Assembly (NCBI RefSeq): GCF_002939305.1
Contig: NZ_MVDI01000003.1
Span: forward strand, 62,001 to 126,000
Direction: 5' to 3'
Length of the DNA: 64,000 bases
Origin: Chroococcidiopsis sp. TS-821
GTDB lineage: Bacteria > Cyanobacteriota > Cyanobacteriia > Cyanobacteriales > Chroococcidiopsidaceae
The notes below the pieces were generated by a model. The model saw only the letters and a list, made by a program, of their open reading frames with translations, was not told the DNA's origin and searched no databases. Made by a program: the position numbers and the translations under genes. This document shows positions 33,035 through 62,632 of the stretch, piece after piece; the stretch's first letter is position 1; the number at the start of each line of letters is the position of its first letter.

Positions 33035-33454
33035 ATGCCTGCAATGTTTAAGACTGTTTTATTTCCGATCGATCAAAGTCGAGATGCTAGAGAAGCGGCT
33101 GAAGTTGTTGCTGATGTCGTGAAAAAGTATGATAGTCGCTTGGTACTGCTATCAGTCGTCGAATCTGCGGATTCAGAAAACGAACCTGGGGCTGACATGA
33201 TGGCGTCACCTGATGCTGTAGCACAGCTGCTTAAGAATGCACAATCACTTTTTCTAGAACAGGGTATCCAAGCTGAAACAATCGAACGCGAGGGTAAGCC
33301 GGCGTTTGTTATCTGTGATGTAGCGGATGAAATTGAGGCAAATTTAATTATTATGGGTTGTCGAGGACTAGGACTAACTGAAGAAGGTGTCAGTGACAGC
33401 GTGACTAATCGCGTGATCAATCTTTCTCCCTGTCCTGTATTGATTGTGCCTTAA
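33035..33454 (+). CDS. Universal stress protein, UspA family
   Basis: 139-residue single-domain protein with the ATP-binding type motif GCRGLGLTEEGVSDSVTNRVI (G-2x-G-9x-G-S/T pattern) and the end CPVLIVP. The start could also be the ATG at 33044, which gives the family's usual MFKTVLFP. It is divergent from pgk across 80 bases. Target unknown. Confidence 0.88.
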   Translation: MPAMFKTVLFPIDQSRDAREAAEVVADVVKKYDSRLVLLSVVESADSENEPGADMMASPDAVAQLLKNAQSLFLEQGIQAETIEREGKPAFVICDVADEIEANLIIMGCRGLGLTEEGVSDSVTNRVINLSPCPVLIVP

Positions 33455-33455
33455 A

Positions 33456-33487
33456 AGCGATTAGCGGTTAGCAATTAGCTATTAGCA
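33456..33487 (+). repeat. Left terminal inverted repeat
   Basis: 32 bases beginning AGCGATTAGCGGTTAGC, built of TTAGC words. It begins 2 bases after the stress-protein stop. Its reverse complement matches 29 of 32 bases with 33845-33876. Confidence 0.75.
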
Positions 33488-33588
33488 CTTTATTTCTCTA
33501 GATGTAATTTATTTTGACAAACTTTAGACAGTAAAAAGTATGGGAAACACGCGCTCTTACGCTAGCAGTTTACTAAGCGCCGCGAACC

Positions 33589-33838
33589 TTCGCTAAAGAG
33601 GATATTGTACGAATTGACAAGCCAAATGTGTCGAGCTTGCGTTTCAATTCCTGCTAATATTGCGGAAGGATGTGGTAGCAAAGGAAAAGCAGAATTAGCT
33701 CGCTTCTTGCAAATCTCTGTGGGATCAGCTAGTGAGCTAGAGTCCTACCTACTTCTGGTTAGAGATCTTCAATTACTAAAAAGCCCTAAATGAATTAAAG
33801 CAAATTGTGAAATTCATTCATCTAAAGGCTTATTGTCT
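33589..33838 (+). pseudogene. Decayed four-helix-bundle protein (23S rRNA IVP/Avd-like)
   Basis: An open frame of 62 codons (33605-33793) contains the family core LTSQMCRACVSIPANIAEG and LARFLQISVGSASELESYLLL. Both ends are broken. Upstream, FAKED lies in another phase one base away from YELTSQM, and the usual first 20-30 residues are missing. Downstream, removing one A from the A5 run at about 33779 would extend the frame through ALNELKQIVKFIHLKAYCL. The family encodes four-helix-bundle proteins found in rRNA intervening sequences and as accessory proteins of diversity-generating retroelements. The relic lies between the inverted repeats. Confidence 0.7.
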
Positions 33839-33844
33839 AGTAAT

Positions 33845-33876
33845 TGCTAATGGCTAACAGCTAACCGCTAATCGCT
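33845..33876 (-). repeat. Right terminal inverted repeat
   Basis: 32 bases ending CTAACCGCTAATCGCT, the inverted partner (29 of 32) of 33456-33487. It ends 4 bases before the rbgA start codon and occupies the place where a ribosome binding site would be. Confidence 0.75.
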
Positions 33877-33880
33877 AAAA

Positions 33881-34744
33881 ATGACAACTCCCGCTATTCA
33901 ATGGTATCCAGGTCACATTGCCAAAGCTGAAAAAGCACTTAGAGAACAGCTCAAGCTTGTCGATGTCGTGCTGGAAGTTCGTGATGCGCGAATTCCTCTA
34001 GCAACGCATCACCCGCAAGTTAAAGAGTGGGTAGGAAGTAAAATGCGGGTTTTGGTCTTGAATCGCGTTGACATGATTCAACCACAAGCACAGCGAATGT
34101 GGACGCAGTGGTTTAGAGACCAAGGAGAAGAACCGTACTTCACAAATGCGCAAAAAGGCGAAGGTGTCATTGCCATAGCGAAAGCCGCACAAGCTGCGGG
34201 GGTAGCAGTGAACCAAAAAAGACGCGATCGCGGAATGTTACCGCGCCCTGTACGGGCGGTTGTCATTGGTTTTCCAAATGTTGGTAAATCAGCACTCATC
34301 AATCGGTTATTGAGGCGCAAAGTTGTCGAAAGCGCGGCGCGTCCTGGTGTCACGCGACAGTTACGCTGGGTACGGATTTCGGATCAACTAGAATTATTAG
34401 ATGCTCCTGGGGTGATTCCCGCCAAGTTGAACGACCAACAAGCTGCTTTTAAATTAGCGATTTGCGATGATATTGGCGATGCATCGTATGACAATCAACG
34501 CGTTGCTGCTGCTTTAGTCGATCTACTCAAGTTTTTGACTGCTACCGCCCCCGAATTATTACCAGAAGATCCTCTACAGCAGCGCTACAAAATCGATCCA
34601 GCCTTGTTTACTGGTGAAGCTTATATTTACACGTTGGCACATCAACGCTATCAAGGTGATGTCGAGCGCACAGCAAGATCGCTATTGACAGATTTTCGTA
34701 AAGGTGCCTTAGGGAGAATTTGTTTAGAGTTGCCTCCAGACTAG
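33881..34744 (+). CDS. rbgA: Ribosome biogenesis GTPase RbgA/YlqF
   Basis: Circularly permuted GTPase that assists late assembly of the large ribosomal subunit. 287 residues with motifs in permuted order: G4 NRVD (variant of NKxD) near 61, G1 GFPNVGKSALIN near 129, G2 RPGVTRQ, G3 DAPG. The N-terminus IQWYPGHIAKA is characteristic. No Shine-Dalgarno sequence is visible because the inverted-repeat arm reaches to 4 bases before ATG. Confidence 0.93.
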   Translation: MTTPAIQWYPGHIAKAEKALREQLKLVDVVLEVRDARIPLATHHPQVKEWVGSKMRVLVLNRVDMIQPQAQRMWTQWFRDQGEEPYFTNAQKGEGVIAIAKAAQAAGVAVNQKRRDRGMLPRPVRAVVIGFPNVGKSALINRLLRRKVVESAARPGVTRQLRWVRISDQLELLDAPGVIPAKLNDQQAAFKLAICDDIGDASYDNQRVAAALVDLLKFLTATAPELLPEDPLQQRYKIDPALFTGEAYIYTLAHQRYQGDVERTARSLLTDFRKGALGRICLELPPD

Positions 34745-62523: not shown

Positions 62524-62600
62524 TTTGGGTAACAGGTAACAGGTAATGGGTAATTGTATAAGTTCTTTTTTCTAACCAATTACCAGTTACCAACTACCAA
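62524..62600. repeat. Inverted GGTAACAGGTAA repeats between cpcG copies
   Basis: GGGTAACAGGTAACAGGTAA with following TGGGTAATTG (62527-62556) faces CAATTACCAGTTACCAACTA (62577-62596). The two arms can pair over a 20-base loop between copies 2 and 3. Confidence 0.6.
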
Positions 62601-62632
62601 GTTTCACTTATGCCTAGTTACTGAGTTACGCA

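Follow-up and report, generated by a model that had tools for sequence, protein, structure and literature searches.

What kind of unit, if any, is formed where a broken four-helix-bundle gene lies between matched inverted repeats and the whole fills the gap between two intact protein genes? The locus that raises this question belongs to Chroococcidiopsis sp. TS-821 and sits in a 64,000-nt stretch of its genome (hereafter the window, to which coordinates refer unless prefixed otherwise). The gene belongs to PF05635 (23S_rRNA_IVP), a family of proteins that are common in bacteria, annotated merely as “four helix bundle protein” and studied mainly inside rRNA; we refer to its genes (IVP/S23p) as fhb.

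A decayed fhb gene between inverted heptamer arrays

The window locus is a decayed copy of an fhb gene between inverted heptamer arrays (Table 1). The initial annotation had described arms matching at 29 of 32 bases; this core is correct and extends to 35 nt per arm, of which 31 positions (89%) are complementary, with 351 nt in between. TTAGC starts at 33461, 33468, 33475 and 33482 in the left arm, and GCTAA at 33846, 33853, 33860, 33867 and 33874 in the right. The tight fit between two genes that had been noted is equally accurate, 1 nt separating the left arm from the usp stop codon and 4 nt separating the right arm from the start codon of rbgA, such that the element is the entire usp–rbgA intergenic region, with fhb on the strand of both neighbors. 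The further proposal that the element takes the place of an rbgA ribosome binding site is not supported, since element-free relatives also have no obvious Shine–Dalgarno sequence 5′ of this gene.

The longest open piece of the gene matches PF05635 with E = 4.4e-20 (72.3 bits, cut-off 33.8) and TIGR02436 with E = 1.2e-20 (73.7 bits, cut-off 24), and the PF05635 match to the genome (C3:95605-95820, approximately 33605-33820 of the window) contains one internal TGA, confirming the enclosed gene as a broken member of the rRNA-IVP-like family; small indels and a stop codon interrupt it in comparison with its orthologues. An intact relative stays under the cut-offs of both Avd models (bAvd, 36.2 bits versus 40; NF033474, DivGenRetAVD, 34.6 versus 80). 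The predicted RNA fold of the element (z = -4.6) has the arms as its closing stem of ~30 bp, and an Rfam search with the element matched no known RNA family. No second copy was found in its own genome.

Table 1. Features of the usp–rbgA locus in the window.
Feature	Position	Strand	Basis
Universal stress protein gene (usp), upstream host gene	33035..33454	+	ORF; PF00582, E = 5.2e-31
Left arm, inward-pointing tandem heptamers TTAGCNN	33456..33490	+	inverted repeat; TTAGC positions
Interior with decayed fhb gene	33491..33841	+	PF05635 match; intact orthologue in G015
Longest open piece left of the fhb gene, 62 aa	33605..33793	+	ORF; PF05635 and TIGR02436 profiles
Right arm, inverted heptamers GCTAANN	33842..33876	+	inverted repeat; GCTAA positions
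rbgA/ylqF-type GTPase gene, downstream host gene	33881..34744	+	ORF; PF01926, E = 4.7e-16

Inverted arms are general to, and specific for, PF05635 genes

Arms were called from the best local alignment between the 400 nt upstream of a gene and the reverse complement of the 400 nt downstream (cut-offs: score of at least 14, period of 7–9 at 55% or more). By this criterion they flank 23 of the 29 fhb genes in the host family and 52/67 across the phylum (45/57 minus a multicopy genome); in other phyla (Bacteroidota, Planctomycetota, Proteobacteria, Clostridia, Methanophagales and others) the count is 48/80, versus 6/715 test windows placed in the flanking sequence of those loci. Of 22 testable fhb genes on viral-classed contigs (L281–L308), 15 carry arms. 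The 20–40% of fhb loci that fail the criterion do so partly via decay, contig ends and weak arms. These counts answer the question, raised in the initial annotation, of whether such genes are generally flanked by such repeats, and bear out its treatment of arms and gene as one unit; the link that it drew with TTAGC exists, but TTAGC is not special, in that the inverted heptamer arrays around fhb can have almost any sequence.

The arms are specific to PF05635. The same criterion finds none at 29 ParE genes (excluding small toxin-type genes as an equally common cargo) and none at 16 rbgA genes, and identifies arms at 4 of 3,150 random positions in the window's genome and its relatives. The sister family, Avd of diversity-generating retroelements (bAvd, PF22296), has a related four-helix fold (E = 8.9e-9 for an fhb protein against bAvd) yet differs in lacking arms at each of 20 cyanobacterial avd genes. 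A near-universal and readily recognized DNA signature that is missing from this sister family ties the PF05635 protein to a nucleic-acid substrate, and provides a direct handle for testing its function.

Ordinary dispersed repeats flanking a pseudogene by coincidence would account for one feature of the window's genome, namely that TTAGC arrays occur at dozens of its sites (48 matches versus 5 for a control pattern). The orthologues carry the same arms (see below), however, and the four control sets stand against a rate of 60–79% for fhb in bacterial genomes; unless these controls are badly biased, chance and ordinary repeats are ruled out, and we regard coincidence as scarcely credible. The initial annotation had named two outcomes as telling against itself, an absence of further copies and an equal frequency of arms around genes of every kind: the former holds within this genome, whereas the latter is contradicted by the controls (ParE, Avd, rbgA and random positions). 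Several of the TTAGC-type arrays of G000 (e.g., L006, L014, L022) lie directly 5′ of start codons and are oriented like the right arm.

These genomes abound in heptamer arrays and small hairpins that lack fhb, and many such arrays lie in cyanobacterial intergenic regions, which would suit a scheme whereby fhb enters the loop of a pre-existing heptamer hairpin (the cyanobacterial tandem heptamers, for example) and the arms belong to the site. Against this, arrays in other phyla cluster near fhb, their density dropping from 5.8 per kb in the 100 bp nearest the gene to 0.1–0.2 at 300–600 bp, and (as detailed below) units follow the lineage of the protein in different families and at different sites; we consider such settlement quite unlikely. 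The idea that genomes with fhb are richer in heptamer arrays is not supported, array density showing no difference between cyanobacterial genomes with and without the gene (p = 0.29). Zero counts at periods 5 and 6 in two of the other array scans are a filter artefact and carry no weight.

Anatomy and placement of the elements

Of 106 elements, 85 have a period of 7, 16 of 8 and 5 of 9, and the span has a median of 488 nt (5–95% range 419–641). C is scarce in the 5′ arm (A 0.32, C 0.08, G 0.32, T 0.27), and in 99 of the 106 it is outnumbered by G. Each element has its own repeat unit, common to both arms (GGTAATN, GGAGCGA, GGTTAAA, GTAAGTC and AGTCAGG among others in the host family), such that arms match far better within a locus than between loci (medians 19.5 versus 9.0; 16.5 versus 9.0 in other phyla).

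Elements reside preferentially between co-directional genes (82/95, 86%, versus 535/875, 61%, of adjacent background pairs; p = 5e-7, with gene calls that are longest open frames and hence approximate, and a background that is cyanobacterial only). Divergent sites account for 3 of the 95, and the median distances from element to neighboring genes are 1 and 3 nt. In 60 of 66 co-directional cases (an earlier count with a somewhat different gene call) fhb lies on the operon strand. Such placement is consistent with read-through transcription of the element and its handling at the RNA level. Most measurable pairs of intact fhb genes have dN/dS of 0.03–0.16; the exceptions are one very close pair at ~1 and several saturated pairs.

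Repeat units turn over at orthologous sites while the two arms stay matched

Comparison of relatives in which rbgA is 69–93% identical shows the usp–rbgA element to be shared by at least three of them: G012, G015 and G011 carry an fhb gene with TTAGC arms at this site as in the window, the frame being open over 129 aa in G015, and the contig of G011 beginning within the gene such that the right arm alone is visible. G013 and G014 (L038, L040) retain the TTAGC right array and traces of the left around a different small reading frame, also broken; a site whose arms persist with other contents is what entry of fhb into an existing hairpin would lead one to expect. This substitute frame looked like an addiction-module antitoxin, but Pfam gave no significant match; its relatives at other sites have no array pair. 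In more distant genera the usp–rbgA gap holds other repeats and no fhb gene.

Two further sites inform on the behavior of the unit itself. Between hemE and an epimerase gene, an antisense fhb gene is present in all 8 genomes, and the 7 usable frames form one clade together with two copies from other sites. The units there are GGAGCGA/GGAGTGA/GGGGTGA in four genomes, GGGGTTA in G007 and AGTGGCT in G010; in most, left and right arms are the same within a genome, with no match between these lineages. The G000 copy is broken, and its arms match weakly, slightly better with the arm of G010. At devC–devA, GGTAATN runs throughout both arms in G000 and G015, and GGTAGTT throughout both in G008; remnants persist in G013 and G014, and fhb is missing from this site in G007 and G009. 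In G010 (L403) the fhb gene is inverted between the arms relative to three other genomes, which suggests recombination between arms.

The evolutionary puzzle is that arms alter their sequence yet stay matched to each other. Exchange between arms (inversion, gene conversion or template switching) could keep them alike as the unit drifts, and a test of unit order points, suggestively, to in-register copying, with the choice of segments having biased the test. Across loci, arm similarity increases with protein similarity (permutation p = 0.0005), the fraction of similar arms being <1% under 0.5 protein similarity, 4% at 0.5–0.6, 13% at 0.6–0.7 and 35% at 0.7–0.8; unit and gene therefore travel or evolve together.

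Several of these features would also suit an ordinary, non-mobile fhb gene whose arms are binding sites, or an mRNA stem, used by the oligomer to regulate itself or the surrounding operon: long residence at orthologous sites, purifying selection on fhb, linkage of unit to protein, and a position flush between co-directional genes. Such control sits poorly with the frequent pseudogenization or loss of fhb while arms are kept, with presence and absence differing among close relatives, with unit turnover faster than that of the protein at one site, and with a genome (G130, below) that holds at least 10 copies at unrelated sites; on balance we think it unlikely.

Arms and gene move together in one genome

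The fhb copies of the relative G130 (L104, L133–L141) have common 13-bp outer ends, CTGACGTTACGCA...TGCGTAACATCAG, and 7 of the 8 complete copies are bounded by a 7-bp target duplication (TTAATAA, TTACTAA, TTATTAA or TAATTAA). Arms and fhb gene are thus able to move as a unit in this genome, probably by means of a transposase acting in trans. Most of these fhb genes are split by a second, nested minitransposon that has inverted heptamers of its own.

Both observations would follow if the arms were in general the subterminal repeats of a minitransposon moved by a host transposase, with fhb as cargo. The support comes from one genome only, though; the window copy and its orthologues have no visible outer terminal repeats, and the bracketing of fhb, rather than of other small genes, in every sampled phylum would go unexplained. 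We judge a passenger role for fhb distinctly improbable, and the G130 case does not establish transposition as the general mode of the class. The same division applies to miniature inverted-repeat elements (MITEs), which the elements resemble in being short, with terminal inverted repeats: the G130 unit, in several copies with target duplications, has the properties of a MITE or non-autonomous transposon, whereas the window copy shows neither outer transposon ends nor target duplication nor a second genomic copy. The mobility proposed in the initial annotation is accordingly shown for the arms-plus-fhb unit of G130, the window copy being single and without outer ends.

Relationship to rRNA intervening sequences and a model for the class

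The closest known parallel is the intervening sequence (IVS) of 23S rRNA in Coxiella and Leptospira (PMC4990558), likewise a PF05635-type frame inside terminal inverted repeats. In Coxiella the IVS has 28-bp terminal inverted repeats around an S23p frame (~30 bp here) and a stem that is cut by RNase III; three tandem GACAGAT heptamers, variable in number among strains, lie 5′ of the frame (PMC4990558). Sizes agree (428–444 bp versus 421 bp for the window element), as do the tandem heptamers beside the ORF in Coxiella and the frequent decay of that ORF. At the window locus, paired terminal repeats and a PF05635 frame (broken, intact in the orthologue) are both present. The differences are that the element lies at usp–rbgA, between two protein genes and not in an rRNA helix, and that its repeat unit differs from element to element and makes up both arms entirely. 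No long conserved 23S segment was found beside the sampled fhb genes, and short 11-mer matches with one mismatch, considered as a sign of a 23S rRNA location, were dismissed as chance. The rRNA IVSs look like one case of a wider, largely unrecognized kind of element.

The parallels with the Coxiella IVS and the predicted closing stem therefore lead us to favor, with roughly even confidence, a widespread IVS-like small element of ~0.42–0.64 kb end to end, consisting of a PF05635 gene between inverted arrays of ~7 nt and residing among co-transcribed genes. Pairing of the arms in the operon transcript would form a stem of ~30 bp whose loop contains the fhb frame. By analogy with Coxiella this stem, whose predicted length is sufficient, would probably be cut by RNase III, and the element would therefore be tolerated almost flush with both neighbors. 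Solved PF05635 relatives (PDB 2gsc and 2rld) have five chains per entry each, which, along with the unit–protein linkage, suggests that the fhb protein binds repeated heptads; most likely its target would be the heptad-repeat nucleic acid of the element that encodes it, and it would serve the maintenance or spread of that element. Several observations run counter to this IVS-like reading. Because fhb is antisense to its operon at several sites and many copies are broken with arms persisting, action of the protein in cis is not required, and the arms may be important in its absence. The numerous cyanobacterial heptamer arrays that lack fhb, at a density unrelated to the presence of the gene, and the 20–40% of fhb loci that fall short of the arm criterion also weigh against it.

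A bolder version, which we put forward as doubtful, holds that PF05635 proteins are the core of phylum-spanning selfish elements that actively write or homogenize their heptad-array ends, of which IVSs are the best-known corner. If true, one arm might for example be copied onto the other by template, giving a lineage-specific unit within a constant architecture.

Heptamer arrays without fhb

The IVS-like reading also offers one picture for rRNA intervening sequences and the heptamer repeats found 5′ of start codons. The tandem heptamers of cyanobacteria and Beggiatoaceae (STRR, TAACTGA; MacGregor 2015, PMC4679880) are likewise 7-nt intergenic units, often 5′ of start codons, and the window locus has the tandem 7-nt intergenic repeats of an STRR; inverted pairing around fhb goes beyond the STRR description. 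Nearly all TAACTGA arrays are direct, and a text search of that paper returned no four-helix gene (MacGregor 2015, PMC4679880). Open-licence PMC papers yielded no description of a link between fhb and heptamers outside rRNA. The arm unit of two loci (L160, L170), TCAGTTA, is the reverse complement of TAACTGA, a possible regulatory repeat 5′ of start codons.

Free cyanobacterial heptamer arrays may be either remnants of elements or independent of them. The highest array density sampled, 87.5 per 100 kb, occurs in G039 (L315, L316), in which no PF05635 gene was detected and 11 inverted heptamer pairs lie within 40 kb. The window itself contains a further, gene-free inverted heptamer pair at 62524-62602, of the GGTAACN type and with a 15-nt loop.
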